Source of the DNA: a virus
Virus record (IMG/VR): IMGVR_UViG_3300028388_000898
Span: 1 to 47,540 of that record
Strand: one strand, 5' to 3'
Length of the DNA: 47,540 nucleotides
Shown here: positions 1-47,540 of the stretch, piece after piece
Layout of the letters: the number at the start of each line of letters is the position of its first letter
Position numbering within the stretch: position 1 is the stretch's first letter
Notes under the pieces: generated by a model
What the model saw: the letters and a program-made list of their open reading frames with translations, nothing else
Told to the model about the DNA's origin: nothing
The model's database searches: none
Made by a program: the position numbers and the translations under genes

Positions 1-231
1 GCCGCTGCCCCTGCCCCGGCTGCGCCCGCCGCCGCTGCCAGCAAGCCGCCTGCGCCGCCTGCTGCGGGAAACGGAGCCCCGGCTGCGGCCAGTGCACCTC
101 CTGCCCCGGCACAGGCGTCCACTGCTGCTGCCCCTCCTGGCCCGACTGCGGATGCCCCGCCTGCTGCGGCATCCCATTCTGACGCACCGCCGCCTCCGCC
201 CGCCGCTGGTGACGGGAACCCGCCGTGGTAA
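1..231 (+). CDS. DUF669-like ssDNA-binding partner protein, C-terminal part (continues from the window end)
   Basis: This is the 76-residue end of the gene that begins at 47018. Frame 1 is open from the first base to TAA at 229-231, and its product is almost pure Ala/Pro with some Gly and Ser, ending in PPW. The last 16 bases of the window equal the first 16. Merging them keeps the frame of the 47018 gene and gives a protein of about 245 residues. The tail looks like the disordered C-terminus of single-stranded DNA-binding proteins, although it ends in an aromatic residue rather than an acidic tip. The low-complexity GCC/CCT run is probably why the assembly was opened here. Confidence 0.75.
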   Translation, partial: AAAPAPAAPAAAASKPPAPPAAGNGAPAAASAPPAPAQASTAAAPPGPTADAPPAAASHSDAPPPPPAAGDGNPPW

Positions 232-927: not shown

Positions 928-1749
928 GTGGTCGCAATACCAGAACAAAATCTTCTTCGCGACAAGATTGAGCTTCAGCAAATCCCAATCGAACACCGCC
1001 CGTATCTCGGATACAGCGAGCTCGGCGACGTATGCCGCCGAAAGCTGTGGTATCGTTTTCGGTTCATGTTCAAAGAAACAATCACGCCGCGTGTGCACAG
1101 GCTGTTCAGCCGCGGACACCGCGAGGAGCCGATCGTGGTTGCCGACCTGCGTGCTGCTGGCGTAGAATGCAAAAACGTACTGGACGAACAGGTTGAAGTC
1201 ATCGGACCGTGGGGACACGTAAAAGGGCACCCGGACGGCGATGTGTTAGGTGTGCCAGACGCGCCTAAGACATGGCACAACCTGGAGATCAAGACCGCTA
1301 ACGAAAAGCGGTTCACCGAGTTCCAACGCTTTGGCGTGAAGCGCTCGAACCCGAAATACTGGGTACAGGCGAATCAATACATGGGCCACAAGAAACAGAC
1401 GCGAACGCTGTTTGTTGTGGTTAACAAGAACACCGACGAACGCCATTATGAACGCGTTGAGTTCGACAAGGCCGCGTTCGAAATGTGGGAAGGCGTGGCT
1501 GAGGAGATTATTACCGCGACCGAACCCCTCGATAAGATTGCCCACGCCCCGGAGTGGTTCGAATGCAAATACTGCCCAGCGCACGGCATCTGCTGGCAGA
1601 ACGAGCCTATTGCAGTGAGCTGTCGGTCCTGCGCCGCTGTGCACATGATGCCGGATGGCGAATGGCACTGCGGCGACTGGCCGAACAAAGGCGCAATTCC
1701 TCTTCATGTGCAGCGGACAGGGTGTAATGGATACCGTCCTCGCACGTGA
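928..1749 (+). CDS. Cas4/RecB-like PD-(D/E)XK exonuclease with predicted Fe-S cluster
   Basis: The 273-residue product carries the PD-(D/E)XK nuclease core: GHPDGD at 99-104, LEIKT at 118-122 and the QANQY motif at 146-150. It has Cys35 plus Cys212, Cys215 and Cys221, the spacing that in Cas4 and AddB nucleases holds a 4Fe-4S cluster. A further CxxC at 231-234 followed by Cys247 looks like an added zinc knuckle. Such enzymes resect DNA ends for recombination or act on branched replication intermediates. Start is GTG 928, just after the preceding stop. The helicase gene starts inside its last 23 bases, so the two are coupled and probably act together like a two-subunit resection machine. Family assignment is by motif only. 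Confidence 0.85.
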   Translation: MVAIPEQNLLRDKIELQQIPIEHRPYLGYSELGDVCRRKLWYRFRFMFKETITPRVHRLFSRGHREEPIVVADLRAAGVECKNVLDEQVEVIGPWGHVKGHPDGDVLGVPDAPKTWHNLEIKTANEKRFTEFQRFGVKRSNPKYWVQANQYMGHKKQTRTLFVVVNKNTDERHYERVEFDKAAFEMWEGVAEEIITATEPLDKIAHAPEWFECKYCPAHGICWQNEPIAVSCRSCAAVHMMPDGEWHCGDWPNKGAIPLHVQRTGCNGYRPRT

Positions 1750-3400
1750 CGGCAGTGCCGATCGCTGGTATCAGGTCGAAGCGGTAAACGGCGTCTTTCA
1801 CTGGTTCTACGAGGGCAACGGCGGCAACCCGCTCGTCGTATGCCCGACGGGAGCTGGAAAGAGTCGCATCATGGGCAGGTTCTGCCGCATGGTGTTGGAT
1901 CGCTGGCCTGATCAGGAGATACTAATTCTGACGCACGTGGGCAAGCTAGTTGAACAGGACGCTGAAGCTGTGCGCAAGTATCTGCCGGACAGCGCTGTTG
2001 GCGTGTTTAGCGCTGGTCTCGGCCTGAAACAACGTCGGCGCATAACGGTTGCCAGCATCCAAACAGCAGCGAATAGCCCGCACTATTTTCGCGGGATCAC
2101 GATCGTACTGGTGGACGAGTGCCACCGTATACCGCACAAGGCCGTCGGACAATACCGCAAGTTCTTAGACTTGTTCACGTGCCCCGTTGTGGGGTTAACT
2201 GCAACGCATTTCCGACTTGGAACTGGATATCTGCACGAAGGCGATGAACGCCTGTTTACTGGCGTATGCTACGAAGTTGACTTGCTAACGCTGGTTGATC
2301 AGGGCTATTTGTCCGACATGATTGCACGCGAACCCACAATCGAAATGAACACCAACGGCGTCCGCAAAGCAGGCGGCGACTTCGTTGTGCGTGCGCTGGC
2401 AGAGCAGCTTGACAGGGAAGAGCTTACCGCGCAGATCTGCGACGACCTTGTGCAGTACAAAGAACGCTATCGGAAATGGCTATTGTTTGCGATCGACGTC
2501 AAGCACGCTGAGCACGTGCAACACGCACTGCTGGAACGTGGCATTGTGGCCGCTGTCGTGCACTCTAAGCAGAGCAAAGGGGCCAACGATACAAGTATCG
2601 CCAAGTTCGAAGAAGGTAGTGCACAAGCGCTCGTATCCATTGAGACACTGACAACTGGATACGACTGCCCTAGCGTGGATCTTGTCGGGCTGCTACGTCC
2701 TACGGCGTCACCTGTACTACATATTCAGATGCTTGGCCGTGGGTCGCGGGTTGTGTATGCTGACGGACACATACTCGACACGCCTGAGCAGCGGCTAGCG
2801 GCTATTGCTGCTGGACCGAAACCGCACTGTATCGTCCGCGATTATGCTGGCAATATCAAACGGCTTGGGCCAATTAACGCCGTCCAGGTGCAGGCTAAAA
2901 AGAAAAAGGGTGCGGGCGAAGCAATCACGAAAGTGTGCCCAGATTGCGGGCTAATGGTCGCGGGAAGTGTGCGCATCTGCCCATCTTGCAAACATGAATT
3001 CGTCTTCAAGCAAAAGCTCAAAACAAAGGCAGGCAAAGACGAAGTTATTACCCGTAGAAAACAAGCGGAGCCGCCGAAGAAACACCGTGTTACATTGCAT
3101 GTAGACGCGGTCGCGTATGGACTGTATGTTGGGCGCTCAGGAAAACAGACGTTGCATGTTGTGTATACATGCGGTTATCAAACGTATACGGAATACAAAC
3201 TGTTCGACGCTGCGTCAACTGCATGGTTCATTTCGAAACGCTGGTGGAACGACCGCACGTTAGACAAGCGACGCGGTGTTCCTAAGACATCGCAGGAAGC
3301 GCACAAGCGCGCAATGAGCGGGGAGCTATTACCGCCGCGAGAAATTACTGTGGAACTTGGCGGCAAGTACCCGGACATTGTTAATTACAAAGTGAGGTGA
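1727..3400 (+). CDS. SF2 DEAD/DEAH-type DNA helicase with zinc ribbon
   Basis: The 557-residue product has superfamily 2 helicase motifs: Walker A CPTGAGKS at 39-46, DECH at 130-133, the motif III-like GLTAT, and a late GRGSR motif VI. After the two RecA-like domains come four cysteines as two CxxC pairs (CPDC and CPSC, around residues 405-425), a zinc ribbon, then a basic C-terminal domain of about 120 residues. The start is placed at ATG 1727, inside the nuclease gene; an ATG at 1655 would overlap more. It is a likely DNA-unwinding partner for the Cas4-like nuclease just upstream or a replication helicase. The stop is followed 3 bp later by the GTG of queD. Confidence 0.9.
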   Translation: MDTVLARDGSADRWYQVEAVNGVFHWFYEGNGGNPLVVCPTGAGKSRIMGRFCRMVLDRWPDQEILILTHVGKLVEQDAEAVRKYLPDSAVGVFSAGLGLKQRRRITVASIQTAANSPHYFRGITIVLVDECHRIPHKAVGQYRKFLDLFTCPVVGLTATHFRLGTGYLHEGDERLFTGVCYEVDLLTLVDQGYLSDMIAREPTIEMNTNGVRKAGGDFVVRALAEQLDREELTAQICDDLVQYKERYRKWLLFAIDVKHAEHVQHALLERGIVAAVVHSKQSKGANDTSIAKFEEGSAQALVSIETLTTGYDCPSVDLVGLLRPTASPVLHIQMLGRGSRVVYADGHILDTPEQRLAAIAAGPKPHCIVRDYAGNIKRLGPINAVQVQAKKKKGAGEAITKVCPDCGLMVAGSVRICPSCKHEFVFKQKLKTKAGKDEVITRRKQAEPPKKHRVTLHVDAVAYGLYVGRSGKQTLHVVYTCGYQTYTEYKLFDAASTAWFISKRWWNDRTLDKRRGVPKTSQEAHKRAMSGELLPPREITVELGGKYPDIVNYKVR

Positions 3401-4816: not shown

Positions 4817-5509
4817 ATGAACGAAGTCATTCTTTACAGTGCAGGCATGGACAGCCATGTCCTCGCACACGCATTCCCGGACGCGCAACTGGTGTACATC
4901 GACAGCGGCGCACGCTATTCCAAGAAAGAGCGCGAAAGCATCAAACGCACGGCACCGCGTGACGTCACAGTTGTTGACGGTGTACTTGACCTTAGCCGGT
5001 ACGAACGCGAGGACGCTATTGTGCCCGCGCGAAACCTGTTGCTTGCAACGGTTGCCAGCTTCTACGGCGAGCGCATCTACATCGGGGCAACGGCTGGCGA
5101 CAACAGCACCGACAAGGACTTCGAGTTCGCGCGACTGGCAGGCGGCGTGCTGTCGCACGTGTATGACAGCCACCATTTCCCCGGTAAGGGCGAAGTCAGC
5201 ATTGAACTCCCGCTCAAGAACATGGCGAAGTCCGCGCTCGTGGAATGGTATCGCGGAGAGTTTGGCGAGGCCGACACGCTGGCAGCAACAACGTCCTGCT
5301 ATTCCAGCGACGATGGACATTGCGGCGCGTGCAAAGCGTGCCTTCGCAAGTGGCTTGCATTCGAAGTTAACGGTATCGCATTGGACAGCATGTTCGCACT
5401 AAACCCGCGTGATTGGGACGGCTGGCAGATGCTGGTCAAACAGATCCGCACGGGTACGCCGTGGCGCGGCGCAGCCGAGGACGCTGACGTTTTGTCGATG
5501 TTCGGGTGA
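4817..5509 (+). CDS. queC: 7-cyano-7-deazaguanine synthase (QueC)
   Basis: A 230-residue PP-loop ATPase: SAGMDS at 8-13 is the ATP-binding loop (variant of SGGxDS). A C-terminal zinc site is formed by Cys161, Cys169, Cys172 and Cys175. QueC turns 7-carboxy-7-deazaguanine into preQ0 using ATP and ammonia. ATG 4817 follows a GGGGGCAG ribosome-binding site. It lies between the Gpt-FolE fusion and the DpdA-like gene. The product is slightly divergent from bacterial QueC in the P-loop, and no fused glutamine amidotransferase is present, unlike the Gat-QueC proteins that make the G+ base. preQ0 (or a base derived from it by a host enzyme) is therefore the expected product. Confidence 0.88.
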   Translation: MNEVILYSAGMDSHVLAHAFPDAQLVYIDSGARYSKKERESIKRTAPRDVTVVDGVLDLSRYEREDAIVPARNLLLATVASFYGERIYIGATAGDNSTDKDFEFARLAGGVLSHVYDSHHFPGKGEVSIELPLKNMAKSALVEWYRGEFGEADTLAATTSCYSSDDGHCGACKACLRKWLAFEVNGIALDSMFALNPRDWDGWQMLVKQIRTGTPWRGAAEDADVLSMFG

Positions 5510-6455: not shown

Positions 6456-7438
6456 TGCTTGACGCGTTGCAGTTTGTGAAAGGCACTGTTATTGAAAAAA
6501 GCGTCACACCGCATCTAACGCACGTACGCATCGCTGACGGTCGCGTGACGGCAACAGACGGAACTGTTACGTTGTCGGCTCCAATCGCATTGGACTTGCA
6601 AGCATTGCCACGCGCCGCGCCGTTTGTCAAGGCTGTTGCCAAGTGCAAAGACGAAGCCGCGATCTACATGACGGACAAGGGGCGGTTAGGCGTGCGCAGC
6701 GGAAAGTTTCGCGCGTATATTGAATGCCTGCCGGAGGAGCATGCGCAGATGTTTTCGCAGCCTGAAGGCAACGTTAGCGAAATCGATGCTTCGCTTCCGT
6801 TGCTGACTGTACTGCGTACTATGCTTCCGTTCATCGGAAAGGATGCTAGCCGTGAGTGGAGCAGAGGCGTTCTGCTGACGGGTAATAGTTGCTTCGCAAC
6901 CAATAACATCGTTTTGATTGAGCACTGGCTAGGGAATACAGCATTTCCAGTTCACGTTAATCTGCCTGAGAAGGCGATCAAAGAGCTGTTGCGTATCAAC
7001 AAGCCGCCAACGCACATCCAAACAACCGCGAACAGCGCGACATTCCACTATGCTGACGGAGCATGGCTGCAAACGCGGCTATACGATCTGCAATGGCCCA
7101 ACGTACGCGCGATGCTGGAAGCTGCACCGCTTTCGCAGCCCTTCACCCATACCAGCGCATTAGCTGAGGCGCTGCGCACGGTACAGGAGCTTACAGAGGG
7201 GCTTGGAGCGTATATCAAAGACGGCGTTGTTAACACATCGCGACAAGACGGCGAAGGTGCAAGCTACGACGTCGACGAACTAGCAGGCGTCGAGCTTACA
7301 GTTAACATCCAGCAAGCGGCGGCGGTGTGTGATCTTGCGCAGCAGATCGACTTTTCGACATATCCAAAGGCGATGCCGTGGCGCGGAAAAACAGCGTACG
7401 GCGGATCGGTTCGCGGGCTGTTAATGGGTATGCGTTGA
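6455..7438 (+). CDS. DNA polymerase sliding-clamp-like protein (beta clamp family)
   Basis: The 327-residue product reads like a divergent bacterial beta clamp. It has repeated beta-alpha units, a VTATDG strand near the N-terminus (residues 28-33), and a middle segment where a DGAWLQTRLYD strand leads into QWPN, as in clamps where this strand precedes the inter-domain linker. The C-terminal third carries insertions. It starts at ATG 6455 overlapping the dpdA stop and ends with TGATG overlapping the polymerase start. That coupling fits a processivity factor made with its polymerase. Similar clamp-like proteins occur beside family A polymerases in other phages. The assignment is by pattern only. 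Confidence 0.65.
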   Translation: MLDALQFVKGTVIEKSVTPHLTHVRIADGRVTATDGTVTLSAPIALDLQALPRAAPFVKAVAKCKDEAAIYMTDKGRLGVRSGKFRAYIECLPEEHAQMFSQPEGNVSEIDASLPLLTVLRTMLPFIGKDASREWSRGVLLTGNSCFATNNIVLIEHWLGNTAFPVHVNLPEKAIKELLRINKPPTHIQTTANSATFHYADGAWLQTRLYDLQWPNVRAMLEAAPLSQPFTHTSALAEALRTVQELTEGLGAYIKDGVVNTSRQDGEGASYDVDELAGVELTVNIQQAAAVCDLAQQIDFSTYPKAMPWRGKTAYGGSVRGLLMGMR

Positions 7439-9420
7439 TGCGCTTTGATAATACCGGCATGTTCTGGGACGACCCTGTGCAGGAACGCGGCCAGAAGCGT
7501 CATCGGCCTATGCCCGCCATCCCAGAAAGTACGTGGCGACCGCCACGCGAATTTCCAAACCTCAGCGCAGCCAAAGCCATCGCAGTTGACGTTGAAACAT
7601 ATGACCCAAACTTAACAACACGCGGACCCGGTTGGGGTCGTGGCGACGGGCACATTGTCGGACTCGCTATTGGGGCAACAGACGGACACCATGTTGGGAA
7701 GTGGTACTTTCCCATGCGGCATGAGGTACAGGGCGAACTTAACCTGGATGCAGCTAATGTCCTTGCGTGGGCACGCGACGCGCTCAGCAACCCCAATCAG
7801 GTGAAGGTTGGAGCTAACTTGCAGTACGATCTTGGATGGCTGCAACAAGAGGGCGTTGACGTTGCTGGTAAGCTGATTGACGTTCAGTTCGCCGAGGCGT
7901 TACTAACAGAGAAGTCGCCCGTTGCGTTGGAAGCCCTTGCTCAGAAGTACCTTAACGAAGGCAAGGACAGTCCGGAACTGTACAAGTGGTGCGACCTTGC
8001 GTACGGCGGCGGCGTTACACCGAAACAGCGTGCTAACATCTATCGCGCCCCGGTGACGCTTGTTGGCCCATACGCGGAAAGCGATGTTGACTTACCGCTG
8101 CGGCTTGCGCCAATACTGCACGAAAAAATCTGGCAGGACGGGCTCATGGACGTGTACACCATGGAGAACGGGCTTATCCGTCTCATGGTTGCTATGCGTA
8201 TGCAAGGCGTTAGCGTTGACATACCAACCGCTGAGAAGACCCGCGACCAGTTGCTCGCAGCAGAGCAAACTACGCAAAAGCGACTCGACAGGCTAGCCGG
8301 GTTCCCATGCAATGTGAACGTTAACGATGACCTTGCGCGAGCGTTCGACGCGAATGGATTGGGCTACAACCGCACAGCAGCGGGCAACCCGTCTTTCACT
8401 AAGGAGTTTCTTAACAATGTAGAGCACCCTCTCGGCGAGCTGATACGCGATGTGCGCTCGTTTTCCAAATTGCGTGGCACGTTTGTCGAGGGGTACATCC
8501 TAGACGCTAACGTCAAAGGCAAGGTCTACGGAAGCTTCCACCAGCTACGCAGCGACGACGGAGGTACACGCTCCGGGCGGTTTAGCTCGTCTGACCCTAA
8601 CTTGCAGAACATACCTAGCCGCGACCCGACGTGGGCACCTGTTATCCGCGGCATGTTTGTCCCAGATGTTGGTCACAAGCTGTGGCGCAGTTACGACTAC
8701 AGTCAGATCGAATATCGCTGTCTTGCGCACTATGCCGTCGGCGACGGCGCTGACGCGCTGCGTGCCGAGTACAACGCTAACCCGCTAACGGATTACCACG
8801 ACAAAACGCACTCGCTTGTCTTGCAGCTAACAGGCAAGGACATTCCACGCAAGCCAATCAAGAACATCAACTTCGGCGGGATCTACGGCGTAGGTAAGAA
8901 AAAGCTGATCCGCATGCTGGGCATAGGCGACACGCTAGGCCGCGAACTCTACAGTGCTTACCACCAAGCCGCCCCGTATGCCAGCGCCACGCTAGAGCAC
9001 TGCGCAGACATTGTTAACATGACGGGAGAGATCACCACTATCCTCGGGCGCAAGAGCCGGTTTGACCTGTGGGAGCCTGCCGAGTGGGACGATAAACGGC
9101 CTGCCCTTCCGTACCATGCCGCACTGAGCACGTACGGAGACATACGCCGCGCCGCAACGCACAAGGCGCTGAACAGGCGGTTACAGGGCTCTGCTGCAGA
9201 TATTATGAAGATGGCGATGCTGCGGTGTTGGGAAGACGGCATCTTCGACGCAACAGGCGTGCCGCGCCTCACCGTACACGACGAGCTGGACTTCAGCGAT
9301 CCAGGTGGCTGCGACGAAGCGTTCAACGAAATGCAGCGCGTTATGGAGACCGCGCTACCGCTCAACGTCCCTGTTGTAGCGGATTACGAAAGTGGACCAG
9401 ATTGGGGTCGCGTTACATAA
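7438..9420 (+). CDS. Family A DNA polymerase with 3'-5' exonuclease domain
   Basis: The 660-residue replicative polymerase has no 5' nuclease domain. The exonuclease starts with motif I DVET at 51-54. Polymerase motif A is YDYSQIEYR (about 418-426), with Tyr replacing the usual Leu. Motif B has RKPIKNINFGGIYG (about 470-483), and motif C is VHDELDF (about 613-619). It uses ATG 7438, overlapping the clamp stop. It is the last gene of the rightward arm, and its TAA abuts the stop of the converging tailspike gene with no spacer. If the genome contains 7-deazaguanine made by base exchange, this enzyme would still copy ordinary dGTP. Confidence 0.95.
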   Translation: MRFDNTGMFWDDPVQERGQKRHRPMPAIPESTWRPPREFPNLSAAKAIAVDVETYDPNLTTRGPGWGRGDGHIVGLAIGATDGHHVGKWYFPMRHEVQGELNLDAANVLAWARDALSNPNQVKVGANLQYDLGWLQQEGVDVAGKLIDVQFAEALLTEKSPVALEALAQKYLNEGKDSPELYKWCDLAYGGGVTPKQRANIYRAPVTLVGPYAESDVDLPLRLAPILHEKIWQDGLMDVYTMENGLIRLMVAMRMQGVSVDIPTAEKTRDQLLAAEQTTQKRLDRLAGFPCNVNVNDDLARAFDANGLGYNRTAAGNPSFTKEFLNNVEHPLGELIRDVRSFSKLRGTFVEGYILDANVKGKVYGSFHQLRSDDGGTRSGRFSSSDPNLQNIPSRDPTWAPVIRGMFVPDVGHKLWRSYDYSQIEYRCLAHYAVGDGADALRAEYNANPLTDYHDKTHSLVLQLTGKDIPRKPIKNINFGGIYGVGKKKLIRMLGIGDTLGRELYSAYHQAAPYASATLEHCADIVNMTGEITTILGRKSRFDLWEPAEWDDKRPALPYHAALSTYGDIRRAATHKALNRRLQGSAADIMKMAMLRCWEDGIFDATGVPRLTVHDELDFSDPGGCDEAFNEMQRVMETALPLNVPVVADYESGPDWGRVT

Positions 9421-28555: not shown

Positions 28556-29899
28556 TTATAGCGGTATCTGTTTACTCTCTTTCCAAAACTTTTCACACGC
28601 GTAGCGAATGCTGTCTATGCAGTGGTTATTTTTGTCTTCCAGTTCGTCAAGGATTTGTTCTGTGCGTTTGTCTACTTTGTAACTGTAGCGAGCAAGCTCG
28701 CGCTGAGTGTAGATACATCTAGGATGCACAACAATGTCGAAAGACTGCAAGAACTTAATGCCTTGCTCGATACTGCCTGCGCCTTTCTTACTGGGCTTAA
28801 CTGGGATCTTCCGCGCTTTCAGAAAGCTAATGATATCGGGTCTTGCGCTATCCGCAATAAACGGCCATCGTACGTCCTGCGCTTCGGGAATATGCTGCAC
28901 CAAAAAGTCAGCAAGACGATCCAGTTCAACGTGCTTCTCATATGCCTCGTGGCTAATGTACAGCGTACGCTCGTCAACGTCTAACCACATGTGAACAGCC
29001 GCCGTCGGATCCACGCTGTAGCCAAAGTCCAGCCCGCGAACTTGACTGCGGAACTTGGCTCTGTCGTGCCATTGCGGCGTCTCGAAGTCCTCCACACGCC
29101 AACGGCTGAACACACTGGCTTGACTGCGCTCCAGGTAGCCGCCTCCCCATACATGATCCGCGAGGCCAGCATCGCGCTCGTAGTCCTCCCGCATCTCGTC
29201 AAGCATGTCCTGCTCAAGAAACGGGTTGTCGTTCCAGTTAGCTTCAATAATAGTCAGCTTCGCTGGCGGATGCTCACCACGGAACAAGGCGTCCACCGGA
29301 TCGTCAGCGTACTTCGGGTTATAGCTAAACCAAAGCTCCGTCCCCTTGGCACGCAATGTCGGTCGCAATGTACGCAGCGACGCAGCGGATATCGTTTGCG
29401 CCTCCTCCACCCAACAGCGGCGAGCGCCCTCGTACGACTTGATTGACTCGGATGTATGGTTTTGCAGGCCAATAAAATCAATACGCCCGCCGCCTGGACA
29501 CTCGATATGCGTGTTAAGGATGCGGAAGTAGCGGCTCAACCGCTGGCGTTTAATGACGTCTTCAATTAGCCGCTTGACAGATTGGTTGATTGATTTCTGT
29601 ACTTCACGTACGCATAACGAACGCAGTCCCGGGATCCGCATGTGGTCGCGTACCAACATCGCCGCAAACGTCCAAGACTTTGCGCTACCTCGTCCACCGT
29701 GCGCGACTTTGTAACGCTGCGTAGACTCTACCAGTTCGCGGAAAACTTCGGGAACGTAGACTGTGTCGTTAGCCGCTTCGGGTAGCGGACCGACGACAGG
29801 CGCGTACTTGATTGTTAACTGTGCAGCTAGTGCACGCTTATCGGCTACGCGCTGTGACGCGAGCTTGCGCGCCTTGCGTATGGCGTACGCGCGATTCAT
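28556..29899 (-). CDS. terL: Terminase large subunit (PBSX / Terminase_3-like)
   Basis: The 447-residue packaging motor has an ATPase with variant Walker A GGRGSAKS (68-75), Walker B CWVEEAQ, and a coupling SYNPK motif. The nuclease domain has GLDFGYSVDP and ADSARPD acidic residues. The start is ATG 29899, overlapping the endolysin stop (ATGA). The C-terminus has NHCIDSIRYA, the last RNase H-like acidic motif. The type is often found in headful-packaging phages, consistent with the circular map. A 108 bp gap with a small inverted repeat follows before the next gene. Confidence 0.95.
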   Translation of the reverse strand: MNRAYAIRKARKLASQRVADKRALAAQLTIKYAPVVGPLPEAANDTVYVPEVFRELVESTQRYKVAHGGRGSAKSWTFAAMLVRDHMRIPGLRSLCVREVQKSINQSVKRLIEDVIKRQRLSRYFRILNTHIECPGGGRIDFIGLQNHTSESIKSYEGARRCWVEEAQTISAASLRTLRPTLRAKGTELWFSYNPKYADDPVDALFRGEHPPAKLTIIEANWNDNPFLEQDMLDEMREDYERDAGLADHVWGGGYLERSQASVFSRWRVEDFETPQWHDRAKFRSQVRGLDFGYSVDPTAAVHMWLDVDERTLYISHEAYEKHVELDRLADFLVQHIPEAQDVRWPFIADSARPDIISFLKARKIPVKPSKKGAGSIEQGIKFLQSFDIVVHPRCIYTQRELARYSYKVDKRTEQILDELEDKNNHCIDSIRYACEKFWKESKQIPL

Positions 29900-30285
29900 G
29901 CGACGGGGTACTTGTCCCAAGGTAGTTGAAAGTGCGGTCCATCGGGAAACGTTCTCCAATCACCGCCCCATTCAATAGCAACGCCAAGTTCATCAGCGGC
30001 CTGTTGCATGGCGTCGGCGATTTTGTGGTACAGCGGCCAATCCCAGCGGACGCCGCCGTTAACATACGCGCCAAGGTCTACGGCATGCCCGGTCAAATGA
30101 CGGCTTTTGTGCGTCGTTGTTGCGCCCGCCTTAAACAGCGCTTTCTGACGTTCAGCAGTACGTGTGCCCTCAAGCACAGCGAAGTCCACTGCTGTCAGTT
30201 CAATGGCGCGCTCCACTATGCGTACAAGATCACTGTGTACGCCCTGCAACCGCTCGCGGCTGCGCTTTCCCAGTTTGAAGCTCAT
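29896..30285 (-). CDS. Endolysin, M15 family peptidase (VanY / T5 Lys-like)
   Basis: A 129-residue L-alanyl-D-glutamate or D,D-peptidase. It has the full M15 zinc set: SRHLTGHAVD with His63 and Asp70, EWGGDW with Glu105, and HFQ with His118. No signal peptide, so release needs a holin, which is encoded just upstream with a 4-base overlap. It cuts the peptide stems of peptidoglycan at the end of infection. Confidence 0.9.
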   Translation of the reverse strand: MSFKLGKRSRERLQGVHSDLVRIVERAIELTAVDFAVLEGTRTAERQKALFKAGATTTHKSRHLTGHAVDLGAYVNGGVRWDWPLYHKIADAMQQAADELGVAIEWGGDWRTFPDGPHFQLPWDKYPVA

Positions 30286-33193: not shown

Positions 33194-33583
33194 TCAGACG
33201 TCAGGTGCAAGCCTTTTTCGCAGCCATCTGTAAAACACATCCTGCGTCACAGTGATATACGACCACGATTCGTCGACAATCAACGATGCAGGTAAGCAGT
33301 ACGCCCACGGCTTGCGGTTCTGTCGATACGCCAGTACGGGGAACCTCCCGCAGTCCATAGCTTGCTGCACACACTGTATCCACCACACGTTAACCGCCAG
33401 ACTCTCATGTCGCTTTACCTCCAAGGCAATACCGGGTATTCCCATGATGTCTGCACCTCCTTCACGCACCTGATCAAGATTGCGCGACAGCGGTTCAGGC
33501 AGCAAGTCGGCGAACTCTGCGTCTAACAGCTTACACAGCTCGCGTTCGCCGACTTGGCCTTTTGTGCGTTGCATGCGTCCCAT
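33194..33583 (-). CDS. PD-(D/E)XK nuclease (Holliday junction resolvase-like)
   Basis: A 129-residue small nuclease. KGQVGERELCKLL (8-20) provides the first acidic helix, GGADIMGIPGIALEVKRHES (about 42-61) gives the D...ExK active site, and VWWIQCVQQA is the conserved Q-containing helix. Such proteins resolve branched DNA before packaging. It lies 3 bases from the next small gene. Confidence 0.8.
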   Translation of the reverse strand: MGRMQRTKGQVGERELCKLLDAEFADLLPEPLSRNLDQVREGGADIMGIPGIALEVKRHESLAVNVWWIQCVQQAMDCGRFPVLAYRQNRKPWAYCLPASLIVDESWSYITVTQDVFYRWLRKRLAPDV

Positions 33584-34663: not shown

Positions 34664-35128
34664 CTAACGGTAGCCGCTCGCCAGCCGGTCAGACTGTTTG
34701 CGATGGCGGAAGAATGTCAGCGCTTGCGGCCAATGGTAGCCGTCTGTGAAGCGTAACAGTGTTCCGGCGAACTCCTCGCATCTGGCTTTATGCGGCCTGT
34801 CGTCACACAGGAAGTCGCCAGCATCGCCAAGGAAGCCCTTGTTGTGCGTGACCACGATGCGCCGCTTCAGCTCAGGCAAGTGCTCCAGTATCCAGGACAC
34901 CTTGTCCGCGTACGCTTGCGCATAACCTGTCGGCGGCTTCGTGGCGATCCATACGTCGTAGCCCATACCGATCAAACTGCGCACAGCATCCAGCGCGCCC
35001 GGTATGGGTGCAAGCCGCAAATAGATTCCGTCAAGGCATTTGACTTCGTCGCCTGTTAGGCCATGCTCGTTCATGTAGCCTTCGAAGTCAACAATAACGC
35101 CGTCCATGTCTACAAACACGCGGTTCAT
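34664..35128 (-). CDS. 5'(3')-deoxyribonucleotidase-like HAD phosphatase
   Basis: A 154-residue HAD enzyme. DMDGVIVDF at 7-15 is motif I, an ATKPP Ser/Thr-type motif II lies near 62-66, and FLCDDRP near 106-112 is motif IV. Such proteins dephosphorylate nucleoside monophosphates and are common in phages that tune nucleotide pools. The upstream 54-residue gene overlaps its start (ATGA-like). Confidence 0.8.
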   Translation of the reverse strand: MNRVFVDMDGVIVDFEGYMNEHGLTGDEVKCLDGIYLRLAPIPGALDAVRSLIGMGYDVWIATKPPTGYAQAYADKVSWILEHLPELKRRIVVTHNKGFLGDAGDFLCDDRPHKARCEEFAGTLLRFTDGYHWPQALTFFRHRKQSDRLASGYR

Positions 35129-36064: not shown

Positions 36065-36256
36065 TCAAACCTTCTTGGTGTCAATACCGTTGCGTTTGAG
36101 CGCGTACGCACAGGCAGACCGCACGCGATGCCGCGTCGCGCGTGAGAAGCCGTAGTCAAGGACAACCGGCACGAGCTTTCCTGCTGCAATAGCACGGTCG
36201 CACATGTCTTTGACAAGCATGCGTTCGTACAAGTCTTGCTCAGCTGTACGTGCCAT
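36065..36256 (-). CDS. Hypothetical basic protein, 63 aa
   Basis: A 63-residue basic helical product with alternating Arg and hydrophobic residues, no cysteine motif. It overlaps the MazG-like gene stop by 1 base. It may be DNA-binding. Confidence 0.5.
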   Translation of the reverse strand: MARTAEQDLYERMLVKDMCDRAIAAGKLVPVVLDYGFSRATRHRVRSACAYALKRNGIDTKKV

Positions 36257-36837
36257 CAGAAGTTCTTGCCGCCGTGCTTATAGGCGCGCCCCTTGTTATA
36301 TGCAGCCTTCGCCGTCATGGCCTCGCCGATGTCGTATCCGTACAAAGCCAAACGATGCAGACTGCCAACACAGGCCGCGAGGTACTGCGACGGATCAGTA
36401 TCGTGGCGCATGCACTCCAGCGCGTCGCTTAGCCCCTTGTGCGCCGATAGTATGGCGAAGAACACAGCCGCCTGATTCATGGCGTGGCGCTGCACAATGC
36501 CGCCAGACATGAACGCTTCGAACGTATCGAAGTCTGTGCGTACAGATGCCGCGTGCTCAGCCACCATTGCGTCCAGATGCATACCGACATCCCAGCCGCG
36601 AACATGGCTAACGTCAGCAATACGAATCAGCGTGTCCGCCGCCTCGCATGCCACGCCGGACAACTCCGGCAAATGGTCATCGTTCGCATTGTCCAGGAAC
36701 GCGTCGAACAGCTCCGTCAACTCACTGTGGCACAGCGCAATGATTTCTCCGTTGTTGCGTGCGTTATCCCACCAACCCTTCGACGCCGCTGTTGTGTGCA
36801 CGTCGGCTGCAAAGTTATCCCAAAGTGTTTTTAACAT
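36256..36837 (-). CDS. MazG-like nucleotide pyrophosphohydrolase
   Basis: A 193-residue protein. GWWDN at 21-25 precedes an all-alpha NTP-PPase core with Glu39 and Glu42 in SELTEL and Glu65 with Asp68 in EAADTLIRI, the paired acidic metal sites of the MazG family. Such phage enzymes hydrolyse (d)NTPs or alarmones such as (p)ppGpp. Start ATG 36837 follows GAGGGCA. Confidence 0.75.
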   Translation of the reverse strand: MLKTLWDNFAADVHTTAASKGWWDNARNNGEIIALCHSELTELFDAFLDNANDDHLPELSGVACEAADTLIRIADVSHVRGWDVGMHLDAMVAEHAASVRTDFDTFEAFMSGGIVQRHAMNQAAVFFAILSAHKGLSDALECMRHDTDPSQYLAACVGSLHRLALYGYDIGEAMTAKAAYNKGRAYKHGGKNF

Positions 36838-36847
36838 GATCTTGCCC

Positions 36848-37072
36848 TCAAAAAGTCTGCGGCTGTGCGACGCCGCGAATTGCCCACATGAACCCGGTCT
36901 GCAGATTGGTCTTGCCAATCGCCACACTACGCTGATCCAAGCCCTGCACCGCCTCGAGCTTTGCGATGTACGCTCCCACCTGTTCGGCAAGCTGTTTACC
37001 TTCGTTCATCAGAGCAATTTCGTCTTCGCTCAGTTCACGATAGCCGGTAATCTTGCGATGTTGATTATCCAC
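36848..37072 (-). CDS. acb2: Acb2/Tad1-like cyclic-nucleotide sponge (anti-CBASS/anti-Thoeris candidate)
   Basis: A 74-residue helical-hairpin protein. ITGYRELSEDEIALMNEGK (8-26) and then DQRSVAIGKTNLQTGFMWAIRGVAQP (46-71, positions approximate) match the Acb2/Tad1 hairpin family. As I recall it, Tyr11 and Lys26 are the residues that Acb2 uses to bind 3',3'-cGAMP, and both fall at the same numbers here. Acb2 sequesters CBASS signal molecules, and Tad1 sequesters Thoeris signals. The gene is early in the leftward arm, next to a DUF7220-like membrane protein. Confidence 0.75.
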   Translation of the reverse strand: MDNQHRKITGYRELSEDEIALMNEGKQLAEQVGAYIAKLEAVQGLDQRSVAIGKTNLQTGFMWAIRGVAQPQTF

Positions 37073-37325
37073 GTCTTTCGCCTTTGCGGTATACCCGCGT
37101 CTCGAATGCGTGGACTGTCCTATGCAGTCCAGCGTTAAAGAACCGCCGCCAGATGTAAGACCTGACGACGCTGACCACAGTAAACAACGCCGTCACCCAG
37201 AACGGCGACGTCTGCAGTGTTGCAAACTGTAATACGATATGCGCGTACACAAGATACGCGACGAGGAATCCAGTTGCATAATTAGCAAAGACTTCTAGTA
37301 TTGATTCTAGTTTTGTTTGGTGCAC
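37065..37325 (-). CDS. Inner-membrane protein (DUF7220-like)
   Basis: An 86-residue protein with two membrane helices (ATGFLVAYLVYAHIVLQF and VTALFTVVSVVRSYIW) and a basic C-terminus (RRFFNAGLHR). The pattern 'QTKLESI..' followed by two helices and 'RSY..RR.FN' is that of DUF7220 phage proteins, often found beside Acb2-like genes. It overlaps the Acb2-like gene by 8 bases. Confidence 0.65.
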   Translation of the reverse strand: MHQTKLESILEVFANYATGFLVAYLVYAHIVLQFATLQTSPFWVTALFTVVSVVRSYIWRRFFNAGLHRTVHAFETRVYRKGERRG

Positions 37326-37379
37326 AGTATGTCCTCATTGTCTGCATACGCTAGCATAAGCAGAACATGTTGCCAAGCG

Positions 37380-37544
37380 CTACCGCGTCAGGTCACGCCC
37401 TGCTAGTAGTGTCAGACCAAGGCCGATCACGTATACCCACCAGACAAGGCTTCCGAGTTCGTGTCCGTTGGCTTGCGCGATGTGAGATGCGACGGCTGTT
37501 GGTGTTACGGCCAATAGTATGTATCCAATGCGTTTACGTTGCAT
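37380..37544 (-). CDS. Small membrane protein, 54 aa
   Basis: ATG 37544 lies a few bases after AAAGGAC on the minus strand. The product has two hydrophobic stretches (GYILLAVTPTAVA and WWVYVIGLGLTLLAG). It is the first gene after the repeat array and precedes the DUF7220-like gene by 54 bases. Unknown role. Confidence 0.5.
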   Translation of the reverse strand: MQRKRIGYILLAVTPTAVASHIAQANGHELGSLVWWVYVIGLGLTLLAGRDLTR

Positions 37545-37572
37545 AATACGTGTCCTTTGTTAGATGACTTTG

Positions 37573-37923
37573 CAAATACACAGTACACAGCTAATACACG
37601 CCGCTTTGTGTATTTGTAACTTGCTGTTTTGGTTAGCGTATTACCCCTCACACACACTCAAATACACAAATACATTAAGCCCAGACCAATCCACGTGTGC
37701 TTATGGGGGGTGCGTGTATTTGTGTATTTGCCGCCATCCTCAAACTGTGTATTTGTAACCCATTGTTTTTCTTTGTGTATTTGCCAAATACACAAGCCCT
37801 CAAATACACACGCCCCGGTGTGTACGCTGTGTATTGGTGTGTATTTGACTTTCGTCTACCGTTTTGCACCGCCTATCCCCTTTGTGTATTTGACGTGTAA
37901 TCTTGTGTATTTGCGTGTATTTG
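37573..37923. repeat. Array of TGTGTATTTG repeats in both orientations (candidate origin iterons or operators)
   Basis: Exact or near-exact copies of the decamer are seen on the plus strand at 37607, 37713 (first base C), 37721, 37746, 37774, 37838, 37883, 37904 and 37914 (first base C). On the other strand, as CAAATACACA, they begin at 37573, 37659, 37785 and 37801. A one-mismatch copy is near 37828. Spacing is irregular, some overlap, and the array lies immediately downstream of the primase-helicase. An origin with initiator sites is my first guess; a regulator-binding array is the alternative. Confidence 0.75.
37773..37795. repeat. Perfect inverted repeat of two decamer units (23 bp)
   Basis: Arms TTGTGTATTTG and CAAATACACAA are separated by one base, giving a 23-bp near-palindrome at the centre of the array. 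It could be a dimer-binding site or a cruciform-forming origin element. Confidence 0.75.
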
Positions 37924-37950
37924 AGGTGAATGCCTAACCGCCTGCGCAGT

Positions 37951-40197
37951 CTAGCATTCCTCCTCGTACCAGAAGTGATCCACTAGCTTGTTATTCCTGC
38001 CTGCGTACTTTTCGTGTGCAACATGTTCTGTCCCATCCGACAACTCGCGTCGCAGCGCCTCGCGCATACCACCCGGAAGCCTCTGTATATTGCGTACGCG
38101 GTTCTTAATTGTGCCCCAACCAATCTTCCGACCGCCTTGCTTTTTGAGCCACTGCACACACCCACGCAGCGCGGCGTCGTAATCCCCGCTAAACATTTTG
38201 TCGCGGTAAAGTTCGGCCTGATACTGGATACTAGCCCACACGATTTTCTCAGCCCACAGAATATGCTCTGCTGTAATCGTCATCCCTTTAGGGTCATCCA
38301 TGCAGGCACGGCCGAGGGCTAGCGACTCCACGTTCATTTCCATGCGGCCTGCGATGCCTGCTTCATAGCTGCCACGTGGCAAGTCCATCGCACGCTGTCG
38401 AATACGGTTTAGCTGCGCTGTGGCGTCTGGCGACACGTGCACTCGAAACGGCGACACTACACGCTTCACGTCGGTAACGGGATCGCCGTTAACCTTGAGC
38501 GCTGCCAGCGTGGCGAGCGTGTCAGTGACGTGATTTGGAAGGGTGAGCTCGTCGGGTGTAAAGTTCGGGTCTGTTGGAGCGCGCTTGTATAGGGATACCG
38601 GGAGTATTAGAAAACGCGCTGCAAAGCCGTCTTCGATGTCTTCAATGGACACGCCGCGTAGAAGCTGCGCCTCTGTAGCTGCGCCTGCGACGACAAGGTT
38701 AGGGCTGTAGACCTGTTTACCGCCGTCGCCCTTTAGCATCCGCGTGACGTATACATCGCCCGCCATAGGCCACAGGCGAAGCCAAGCGTCCATGACGCCT
38801 GCCCTTGGGTCACCGGGCTTTTTAAGAGCCGCTAGCACCTTGCCGAATTCGTCCACGCACATAAGCGCGTCCGGGGAGTCCTTGACAGCATCTTCTAAGC
38901 CCTGCCCTGAGCCACCCAAGCCTCGCAACCCGTTCATTAGGTGCGTTGTTTCCTGCCGTTTGAAACCAAGAAATGACAGAACGCTTCTAGGACCGGATAT
39001 AAGCGTCCCCTTGCCGCAACTGTTGTCCCCGATGGCCGCTAGGTATAGGCGAGCCCGCCCGCGCCGTGTGGTGGCTACCCGCCCGCCTAGGACGTGTGCA
39101 ACAATAGCCGCTGTCGCTAGCATGGCGGATGCTTTGTTCTGCACAAAGCGTGACTTGTCTATCGCCCGCGCCAAGTCGCCCCAAGCCCCCGGAGGCGCAA
39201 GGACGTCCTCATGCAAGAGCTGGTGTTCGTGGTTGGAAATGTCGTCTTCAAATTCGTAGCTTTGCTCCGGTGCAGATTGCACGCCAAGCGACGCGTTCGC
39301 GTCGTGCACTGTGCACACGTTGTCACCGATTTGGATCTGCACCTCTTTACTAATTTCAGCGATGCCGCGTGCGTGATACTTCTGCATGTCCCAACCGTTT
39401 TCCATGCCGCGTGCGTATGCTTCCAGTTCGAATGCGTCCATGAACTTGTGGTGCGGAACATTGGGCATACTGTTCGCGTGATAGATGCGGGCTATGCGCT
39501 GACCTTCGCGACCGGGCTGGCGTGCATCGTAGAGCACAATGCCGCCTGGATCGCTGCCTTGCAGATTAGTCCAGCGGTTAGGCTTTTCCATCTTGAACAG
39601 CGCTGGATGCGCCGCGAGTACGCTTTCAATGCTGTTATAGTAGTTGAACCAGAAGGCGACGGAATGCTTGTTATTAACAACGGACTCGGCGGAGTTATTG
39701 GACGCGTACTCAGCGAGTTCCCGTTCCAGCGCTTGTTGTAGTCTCAGCCAGAAGTCCACCAGCTTTTGCGGCATAACCGTCGGGACGCGGCTACCCTCGC
39801 AGGCATAGTGCCCGCCGTCTGGGTAAGCAGAACCGGGCATGGCGTCTTGATGCGTTGGGCCAGTGCGAAGCTCAAGAATGCCTTCAAATGAAATGTAGGA
39901 GAGGGGGACCCCGTCAGGTATTTGGAAAAGCAATTTTGCGGTGTTCTGCTTGGGGCTGACGATCTGCATGTACTGCGCATCGTGGCGCATAGCTGCAAGC
40001 TCTGGCAACGTGCGCTCAATAGCTGCAACATCGTCCATGTCCACGGCGCAAGTGCTGTGATGAATAAGCCCGACGCCTGTTGCGCCATGATACGTCCTTG
40101 CAGCGTCAAACGTCATTGGGTGGTTAGGCCAATCATCGAGGAATGGCCGTTTCCCGTTTAGCGGAGTAAACGTCGCACGCGTCCACAGAGCGGTCAT
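37951..40197 (-). CDS. Primase-helicase (prim-pol-like N-terminus, DUF3987-like helicase C-terminus)
   Basis: A 748-residue replication protein. The N-terminal ~170 residues have AEP/prim-pol features: GVGLIHHS followed by AVDMDD at 51-56 (metal-binding Asp pair) and a later THQD/His segment. The second half has a P-loop GDNSCGKGT (about residue 395) and a VDEFGK Walker B region, typical of DUF3987-like helicases. Such fused proteins prime and unwind replicating phage DNA. The start codon at 40197 follows the small RHH-like gene by 4 bases. The repeat array lies just downstream. Confidence 0.85.
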   Translation of the reverse strand: MTALWTRATFTPLNGKRPFLDDWPNHPMTFDAARTYHGATGVGLIHHSTCAVDMDDVAAIERTLPELAAMRHDAQYMQIVSPKQNTAKLLFQIPDGVPLSYISFEGILELRTGPTHQDAMPGSAYPDGGHYACEGSRVPTVMPQKLVDFWLRLQQALERELAEYASNNSAESVVNNKHSVAFWFNYYNSIESVLAAHPALFKMEKPNRWTNLQGSDPGGIVLYDARQPGREGQRIARIYHANSMPNVPHHKFMDAFELEAYARGMENGWDMQKYHARGIAEISKEVQIQIGDNVCTVHDANASLGVQSAPEQSYEFEDDISNHEHQLLHEDVLAPPGAWGDLARAIDKSRFVQNKASAMLATAAIVAHVLGGRVATTRRGRARLYLAAIGDNSCGKGTLISGPRSVLSFLGFKRQETTHLMNGLRGLGGSGQGLEDAVKDSPDALMCVDEFGKVLAALKKPGDPRAGVMDAWLRLWPMAGDVYVTRMLKGDGGKQVYSPNLVVAGAATEAQLLRGVSIEDIEDGFAARFLILPVSLYKRAPTDPNFTPDELTLPNHVTDTLATLAALKVNGDPVTDVKRVVSPFRVHVSPDATAQLNRIRQRAMDLPRGSYEAGIAGRMEMNVESLALGRACMDDPKGMTITAEHILWAEKIVWASIQYQAELYRDKMFSGDYDAALRGCVQWLKKQGGRKIGWGTIKNRVRNIQRLPGGMREALRRELSDGTEHVAHEKYAGRNNKLVDHFWYEEEC

Positions 40198-40201
40198 TGC
40201 G

Positions 40202-40495
40202 CTACCCCGCGTAGTTGTTATTGAGGTTCTTGCGAACGCGCTGTCGGTCTACTTTGCGTAACCGTTTGTAGATCTCGTAAAGGCACTGACGAAGGTTGTT
40301 GTATTCGATACCGTTAGCAATCGATACCGGATCCGCCGTTTCCAATACGTCGACGCTGTCGTATTGGCGGATGCACGCACGCACGCCAGCTGACGCGCTG
40401 CCGTTTCCAATTAGTTTGGCGCGAAGCAGTTCTTTGTCCGTCAAGCCGATTGTTCTGCCGATGATTTTTTGATCGCCTAGTTGCGGGCGCGGCAT
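40202..40495 (-). CDS. Small basic protein, 97 aa, first gene of the leftward arm
   Basis: ATG 40495 is preceded by GGAGGACA, a good ribosome-binding site. The product has a short strand-like start (RPQLGDQKIIGRTIGLTDKE) and two helices with basic residues (VRACIRQYD, KRLRKVDRQRVRK), reminiscent of ribbon-helix-helix or other small DNA-binding proteins. As the first gene after the control region and just before the primase-helicase, it may regulate the divergent promoters. Confidence 0.65.
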   Translation of the reverse strand: MPRPQLGDQKIIGRTIGLTDKELLRAKLIGNGSASAGVRACIRQYDSVDVLETADPVSIANGIEYNNLRQCLYEIYKRLRKVDRQRVRKNLNNNYAG

Positions 40496-41438: not shown

Positions 41439-41502
41439 GGGCAGGCGTGGTATCCCAACTCCCAAAGTTGAAACAACACGCGCCGCGCTTGCCCCTTCTT
41501 TG
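41439..41502 (+). terminator. Structured intergenic RNA, possible terminator before the tRNA
   Basis: GGGGCA near 41439 can pair with TGCCCC near 41490, enclosing an internal hairpin CAACT...AGTTG, and TTCTTT follows. It may be a weak terminator or a tRNA-processing leader. Confidence 0.35.
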
Positions 41503-41577
41503 CTGGTGTAGCTCAGCAGGTAGAGCAGCTGATTTGTAATCAGCCGGTCGCAGGTTCGATTCCTGTCACCAGCTCCA
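41502..41577 (+). tRNA. tRNA-Thr (anticodon TGT)
   Basis: Full cloverleaf: acceptor GCTGGTG pairs with CACCAGC, anticodon stem GCTGA/TCAGC around loop TTTGTAA (anticodon TGT), T-loop GTTCGATTC, encoded CCA end at 41575-41577. It reads ACA codons. It is the only tRNA I see. Confidence 0.95.
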
Positions 41578-47018: not shown

Positions 47019-47540
47019 TGCCTGCCATTCCTGGAGGTCCTATCAACACCGCCGAAAGTGCGGATATGCGTCAACCCGGAGGCGTCCTGCCCCCGCACAA
47101 ATACGTCGTTATGGCCGTGAGCTCCGAGGACAAGAAATGGGGTACGGGCACCGCGCTGTCATACCGCATGGAAGTTCAGCAGGGCAAGTTCAAGGGGCGC
47201 AGTGTCTATAACAACATGGCGCTCGTCAACGACACACCGAAGACCGTGCAGATCGCGCGCGAAGAGTTCGCGACCATGACCCGCGCCATCTTCGGCCAAG
47301 ACTACCAGATTACCGACAGCGAGCAACTGCATGACCGTCTGTTTGTGGTGGAAGTCGACGTCATCCCTCCGGGTGCGGAAGGCAACAAGAAGCCGCAGAA
47401 CAAAATCGTCGGCTATGAAGTGCACGACGCTTCCAAGGACTACGGTGACCCGTCGGACGACTACGTGCCGCCCGCTGCTGTCGAGCAGACGGCCAGCGCT
47501 GCGCCTGTAGCCCCCGCCGCCCCTGCCGCTGCCCCTGCCC
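47018..47540 (+). CDS. DUF669-like ssDNA-binding partner protein (N-terminal part, truncated by the window end)
   Basis: The gene starts at ATG 47018 and runs off the window; it continues at position 1. The first ~150 residues show KYVVMAVSSEDKKWGTGTALSYRM then KFKGRSVYNNMAL, the OB-like pattern of DUF669 proteins, which accompany Sak4/AAA_24 ATPases. After residue ~145 the chain becomes an Ala/Pro repeat. About 245 residues in all when joined. Likely the phage SSB for recombination and replication. Confidence 0.8.
   Translation, partial: MPAIPGGPINTAESADMRQPGGVLPPHKYVVMAVSSEDKKWGTGTALSYRMEVQQGKFKGRSVYNNMALVNDTPKTVQIAREEFATMTRAIFGQDYQITDSEQLHDRLFVVEVDVIPPGAEGNKKPQNKIVGYEVHDASKDYGDPSDDYVPPAAVEQTASAAPVAPAAPAAAPA
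47525..47540. repeat. 16-base terminal overlap with the window start
   Basis: The last 16 bases are identical to bases 1-16. Merging them keeps the open frame of the DUF669-like gene. This is the signature of a circular assembly with a short overlap, or of a low-complexity repeat. Confidence 0.8.

Follow-up and report, generated by a model that had tools for sequence, protein, structure and literature searches.

The decamer array and its surroundings

The DNA analyzed here (the window) spans 47,540 bases and makes up the whole of one IMG/VR virus record. On the minus strand it encodes a 748-aa protein that combines a Prim-Pol domain with an AAA+ helicase, and the gap from the stop codon of this gene (37951) to the start of a 54-aa ORF (37544) is filled by an array of short repeats with the word TGTGTATTTG (Table 1). 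No convincing gene overlaps the array, and 27 bp separate its last site (37923) from the Prim-Pol stop codon, in agreement with the initial annotation, which had placed the repeats in non-coding DNA immediately downstream of a primase-helicase.

Table 1. Coordinates of the array, its repeat units and other features of the window
Feature	Position	Strand	Comment
Decamer array (Y)GTGTATTTG	37573..37923	both orientations	Proposed iteron origin
Exact TGTGTATTTG, start positions	37607, 37721, 37746, 37774, 37838, 37883, 37904	+	
Exact TGTGTATTTG, start positions	37573, 37659, 37785, 37801	-	
Variant CGTGTATTTG, two copies	37713, 37914		
Variant AATGTATTTG, one copy	37667	-	
Variant TGTGTATTGG	37828		
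Decamer pair overlapping by 2 bp	37713..37730	+	8-bp step
23-bp palindrome TTGTGTATTTG-C-CAAATACACAA	37773..37795		Exact around one central base
TTTGGTTA octamer	37628..37635	+	Only copy in the record, inside the array
Prim-Pol/AAA+ helicase, 748 aa	37951..40197	-	Proposed initiator; PF09250, PHROG 3022, model
97-aa basic protein	40202..40495	-	Directly upstream of Prim-Pol; possible alternative binder or regulator
54-aa ORF	37380..37544	-	Start 29 bp from array end; first ORF past the proposed origin
DUF7220 protein	37065..37322	-	Near the proposed origin
MazG-like pyrophosphatase	36256..36987	-	Near the proposed origin
NT5C-type nucleotidase	34664..35125	-	Near the proposed origin
PDDEXK endonuclease	33194..33580	-	Near the proposed origin
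Terminase large subunit	28556..29956		8 kb from the array
Family-A DNA polymerase	7378..9417		
Separate helicase	1655..3397		
QueC-like protein	4817..5506	+	PF06508, E 4.6e-13
tRNA-Thr (TGT)	41502..41577	+	Near the gene-orientation switch
Shared record ends, 16 bp GCCGCTGCCCCTGCCC	1..16, 47525..47540		In Pro/Ala-type coding sequence

Eleven exact copies of the decamer were found in the array, seven on the plus and four on the minus strand. When one mismatch was allowed, a search of the whole 47.5-kb record gave 14 matches, all of them within the array, so that both the earlier count (at least 13 copies in two orientations within some 350 bases) and the remark that the decamer was not noticed in the rest of the record stand. 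Looser spellings yield 13 YGTGTATTTG and 14 TGTATTTG cores, and the overall number of sites can be put at 11-15. Such density is not expected by chance, as had been proposed: a first-order Markov model predicts 0.0007 exact copies per 351 bp and 0.09 per record, and shuffled sequence contains 2.75 matches with at most one mismatch per window (maximum 7) versus the 14 observed. An unbiased scan for dense 9-mers detected no second array of this kind in the record.

The palindrome described previously is confirmed, and consists of two head-to-head decamers 1 bp apart (37774-37783 on the plus strand and 37785-37794 on the minus strand). Positions 37715-37730 are a perfect inverted match of positions 37659-37674, forming a 16-nt inverted repeat. 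The spacing of sites is irregular, from 8 to 54 bp with some 8-bp and 10-bp steps, the spacers are unrelated to each other, and no clear helical phasing was seen among the sites. The units of 10 bp, their two orientations and this spacing agree with the earlier view that the locus is not a CRISPR array. We rejected that possibility because CRISPR loci have regular direct repeats of ~23-50 bp that alternate with unique spacers about as long. The predicted fold energy of the array is below that of shuffles (z -3.6), the inverted repeats being mostly decamer pairs. The description of the region as AT-rich needs tempering: its AT content (~57%) exceeds that of the record (~44%), but only moderately. 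The cumulative GC skew has its minimum near 39 kb, where third codon positions keep their sign; the minimum therefore follows gene orientation, and the GC-skew plot, suggested earlier as a check, is uninformative and was rejected as evidence for an origin.

The Prim-Pol protein and its neighbor

In the 748-aa protein the Prim-Pol domain (PF09250) occupies residues 10-143, and the protein matches the DNA primases of PHROG 3022. The AlphaFold2 model, built with 58 sequences, has a mean pLDDT of 62, with most of the helicase part at 75-97. The latter contains an AAA+ module at residues ~336-669 that matches MCM helicases (VIA Z 18.5, with 269 residues aligned at an rmsd of 3.5), and some alignments with MCM continue through the MCM winged helix to residue 747 (330 residues, rmsd 4.9). 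Judged from this model, the C-terminus (~673-745) is probably a winged helix, since residues 673-743 show the winged-helix-like order helix-helix-helix-strand at low model confidence (pLDDT ~48-72).

The catalytic AEP aspartates D53 and D55 are common to all 57 aligned relatives. In contrast, the motif-II histidine column (residues ~80-101, where the local alignment is uncertain) has His in 57 of 57 relatives and Tyr in the record. The lysine in SPKQNTAKLLF may take the place of this histidine. As the histidine appears to be missing and the lysine is only a possible substitute, catalytic competence of the protein is uncertain.

The 97-aa protein encoded directly upstream gave no significant database match and no recognized domain, and its single-sequence model has a pLDDT of 47; inspection by eye suggests a possible RHH fold. 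In most relatives the corresponding slot holds a gene for a small HTH protein.

Arrays beside Prim-Pol genes in related phages

No close relatives of the record were found, either by DNA in the phage collection or by Prim-Pol in viral or genome contigs. Searching by related polymerases brought up 16 records whose Prim-Pols are distant, with 16-21% identity across the alignment. In some of them, dense arrays of quite different words were observed directly 3' of Prim-Pol, GGGGATAGG in locus L130 and ATTCCATCT in locus L134. Using an alignment of the distant Prim-Pols, we recovered 79 IMG/VR loci and compared 400-bp segments at twelve offsets with dinucleotide shuffles. The array score counts a 9-mer with one mismatch, so that weaker arrays escape.

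By this test, short-word arrays occur in 24 of the 66 Prim-Pol 3' flanks (the record included) versus 0-10% at the eleven other offsets. These samples of the family lack phylogenetic independence; removal was limited to near-identical flanks. The highest score belongs to the record itself (29 versus a shuffle maximum of 6). Within the same loci, arrays are present in 10 of 32 Prim-Pol 3' gaps versus 14 of 194 other intergenic gaps (p = 0.0004), a weaker contrast that points the same way; at least one array counted among the latter, in L143, actually abuts Prim-Pol, the gap there being probably split by a spurious ORF. Looking in related phages, as proposed in the initial annotation, showed a comparable cluster at this position, with a different word, in about a third of them.

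The words are lineage-specific. Most arrays hold both orientations, 9-12-bp steps are common within clusters, and many arrays of relatives surround an AT-rich core. The array of the record is the densest among them, yet it has no clear core of this kind: its most AT-rich 50-mer is 70% AT versus mostly 74-96%, and in many cases 80-96%, in array-bearing relatives. Approximately two thirds of the Prim-Pol 3' flanks of relatives have no array by this test, and a clear array was not seen in Septimatrevirus Ab26, Escherichia phage Seurat and phage 9g. The array is therefore not obligatory, as most flanks, including those of Ab26 and the Queuovirinae examined, show none by this test. In a few relatives, dense arrays lie kilobases from Prim-Pol, namely TTGTTTACC in L163 (~3.6 kb 3'), TAACGAATA at 15931-16174 in L123, and TAACTTATT at 2134-2543 in L121, and the origin may move away from the initiator gene in some lineages.

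Just 5' of Prim-Pol, most array-bearing relatives (loci L143-L211) encode a small conserved HTH-like protein with the approximate consensus GIPFYWLRKF..G...NPSVNRVQ.LYEFLTG. A small HTH protein before Prim-Pol is also annotated in Ab26 and Me-ZS1.

Conservation of sites in the GGGGATAG lineage

Arrays of GGGGATAG are present in Variovorax phage VPv64, Pseudomonas phage PSASB_03 and Stenotrophomonas phage Bhz54 (L215, L216 and L231). Like the array of the record, they hold both orientations and lie directly at the Prim-Pol 3' end, beginning at the stop codon; they differ from it in the word, in their AT-rich centre and in the Prim-Pol, which is of the type with the NrS-1 HBD. The Prim-Pols of these three phages, of Pseudomonas phage Baskent_P4_1 and of Stenotrophomonas phage ytsc_ply2008005c share 96-97% identity with L130 as the query. 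Although the Prim-Pols of the phages compared are about 96% identical, the intergenic region of Bhz54 has drifted: its sites retain 93% identity to ytsc_ply2008005c and 95% to VPv64, whereas the spacers retain 65% (p = 1.4e-5 and 2.5e-6, respectively). This difference indicates, from sequence comparison, that the array sites are under selection in the GGGGATAG lineage. A dyad, CCTTGGTGGCTAAGG, recurs on the flanks of the AT-rich core in members of the GGGGATAG group (L215 ~5310-5470; L130 960-1145); being absent from Bhz54, it is probably not essential.

The same decamer in a distant Prim-Pol phage

We scanned 2.9 million viral contigs blindly for pairs of decamers no more than 30 bp apart. 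Of the 42 loci recovered, most were AT-rich and unrelated; the Prim-Pol profile picked out L004 and L037, which belong to the same phage. Its array lies 3' of Prim-Pol, with five TGTATCTG nearer the gene and four GTGTATTTG at the far end. The Prim-Pol of L004 is only 21% identical to that of the record, and its helicase part is the least similar among the 57 relatives. In contrast, its C-terminal 95 residues are the best match to those of the record among the same 57 (shuffle p 0.026), and the pattern I[KR]NR.R in the C-terminal domain is found only in the record and L004 among the relatives compared. The two proteins give a hint that the C-terminal domain of Prim-Pol may read the decamer. The small protein encoded upstream of Prim-Pol in L004 is HTH-like and looks unrelated to the 97-aa protein of the record.

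No exact match to the head-to-head form of the decamer was found in the viral contigs, and a relaxed scan with TGTGTATYTG added no further Prim-Pol phage. Dense clusters of TGTATYTG were seen in L237 (588-705) and L242 (~3393), with no Prim-Pol nearby in the stretch examined.

Comparison with known systems

Repeats bound by an initiator helicase and located 3' of its own gene are known from SCCmec and SaPI elements. In SCCmec, Cch2 has been shown to bind repeats downstream of the helicase gene via its C-terminal domain, and for SaPI Rep the repeats 3' of the initiator helicase gene and binding by the C-terminal domain have been described (PMC7581432). The record resembles both in having multiple short specific repeats directly 3' of an initiator-type helicase gene. 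However, the SaPI and SCCmec initiators are helicases of another type and not AEP Prim-Pol fusions, and the elements are not free phages; the 13-15 sites of the record have a different sequence and are putative binding sites.

An origin 3' of a Prim-Pol gene is known from pRN1, where it was placed genetically and is a stem-loop of ~100 nt without iterons; the authors also proposed stem-loops for phages (BIP-1) (PMC4234260). In pRN1, as in the record, a small protein gene precedes the gene for a Prim-Pol/helicase protein with a winged helix (probable in the record), and the origin or array lies 3' of the latter. The record differs in having an array, and neither a centroid fold nor an inverted-repeat search revealed a long pRN1-like hairpin in it. 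Phage P4 alpha, cited in PMC4234260, is one protein that primes, unwinds and binds origin repeats via a winged helix. The P4 alpha/ori pair resembles the proposed single-protein initiator of the record. The primase of P4 alpha is of the Toprim type, and the P4 repeats differ from those of the record in sequence and placing.

A comparable fusion of AEP polymerase and ring helicase is found in Nitratiruptor phage NrS-1 (PMC7102993, PMC8718748), and an alignment profile that includes the Prim-Pol of the record matches NrS-1-type primase chains. The primase gene of NrS-1, unlike that of the record, is directly followed on its 3' side by neither a gap nor an array. The Prim-Pol of the record appears to lack the motif-II histidine of the 57 aligned relatives and has no detected PF22763 helix-bundle domain (at E 0.01 only the Prim-Pol domain was found), which is present in L130. 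The NrS-1 polymerase recognizes the primase octamer TTTGGTTA (PMC8718748), whose single copy in the record would fall within the array by chance with a probability of ~0.6%. In the NrS-1 genome (AB746912) we found one exact copy, at 17198, 147 bp past the Prim-Pol stop codon; PMC7102993 gives two copies, located centrally in the genome. The octamer was rejected as a general feature of the arrays (4 in 66 flanks versus 2.25 expected), and its presence inside the array of the record is possibly a coincidence.

A candidate replication origin

The initial annotation had offered either an iteron-type origin or a multi-site operator, and this proposal is supported, the comparative evidence favoring the origin: arrays recur 3' of initiator-type Prim-Pol genes while their words change by lineage, the sites outlast the spacers in one lineage, and the word of the record recurs in a second Prim-Pol phage. 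On these grounds the array is probably an iteron origin used by the adjacent Prim-Pol, whichever protein reads the word. That Prim-Pol itself reads the decamer directly is about as likely as not.

Under this proposal, the array would be the replication origin of the phage, and the Prim-Pol/helicase encoded immediately upstream would bind the double-stranded decamers by way of the winged helix at its C-terminus. Because the sites face both ways, two of them head to head, they could gather several Prim-Pol copies, from which AAA+ rings would assemble. The rings would open the DNA, the AEP domain would prime on the spot, and the phage's own family-A DNA polymerase would then extend the primers.

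The closest competing explanation, which overlaps the preferred one, keeps the origin and assigns binding to the small protein encoded upstream, which would load Prim-Pol much as lambda O and RSF1010 RepC load their helicases. The presence of a small HTH protein before Prim-Pol in most relatives fits this arrangement. The equivalent slot in pRN1 also encodes a DNA-binding protein, orf56 (beside the Prim-Pol orf904), but it is described as a repressor (PMC4234260). Since the 97-aa protein of the record has no recognized domain and a poor model, and the decamer is common to L004, whose small protein looks unrelated, we regard a small binder as unlikely, if still the strongest competitor.

The main rival outside replication is a multi-site operator, at which a DNA-binding protein of the phage, such as the 97-aa one, would control transcription past Prim-Pol or of the small genes starting at 37544. 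The array does lie upstream of same-strand genes, and a small protein of DNA-binding type, HTH-like in L004, is encoded beside Prim-Pol in most relatives. However, no sigma-70-like promoter was found in 37250-38050, 13-15 sites in 350 bp exceed the usage of common operators, and the array position tracks the Prim-Pol 3' end while the genes beyond it vary between annotated relatives. The operator reading therefore appears rather improbable.

Direct and inverted short repeats also occur at plasmid centromeres, but a partition, packaging or other non-replicative protein-loading site is very improbable here: it is beside Prim-Pol genes that the arrays recur, no partition genes were found among the proteins scanned (a part of the proteome), and the terminase gene is distant. 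Chance or neutral expansion of repeats without function, for which the close 8-bp and 10-bp steps might speak, can be practically dismissed, as slippage does not account for the irregular spacing, the two orientations or the lack of similarity among spacers, the sites outlast the spacers in the GGGGATAG lineage and the position recurs.

Returning to the origin used by Prim-Pol, a wider scheme can be put forward tentatively. A large phage family with fused AEP Prim-Pol and MCM-like helicase might employ a one-protein initiator, whose winged helix would read lineage-specific iterons 3' of its own gene, with word and reader co-evolving; TGTGTATTTG would be either convergent or retained in two very distant members, and the array might double as a priming site. 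If true, such an initiator would take the place of the stem-loops that have been suggested for phages of the Prim-Pol type. On how these phages choose their start site, the work on NrS-1 yielded a recognition octamer without a proven origin and the models based on pRN1 invoke stem-loops. The recurrent array provides a concrete, testable candidate origin across dozens of genomes. Culturable phages of Variovorax, Pseudomonas and Stenotrophomonas are among them, and many natural pairs of word and reader become available for decoding initiator specificity. In the literature searched, whose coverage is incomplete, we found no earlier description of iteron arrays beside Prim-Pol genes.

Other features of the record

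Two further observations concern the record as a whole. The 16 bp shared by its ends may reflect a circular genome or an assembly broken in a repeat. The QueC-like protein is possibly the product of a 7-deazaguanine pathway gene in a phage; the Queuovirinae (Seurat, 9g) are among the distant Prim-Pol relatives.
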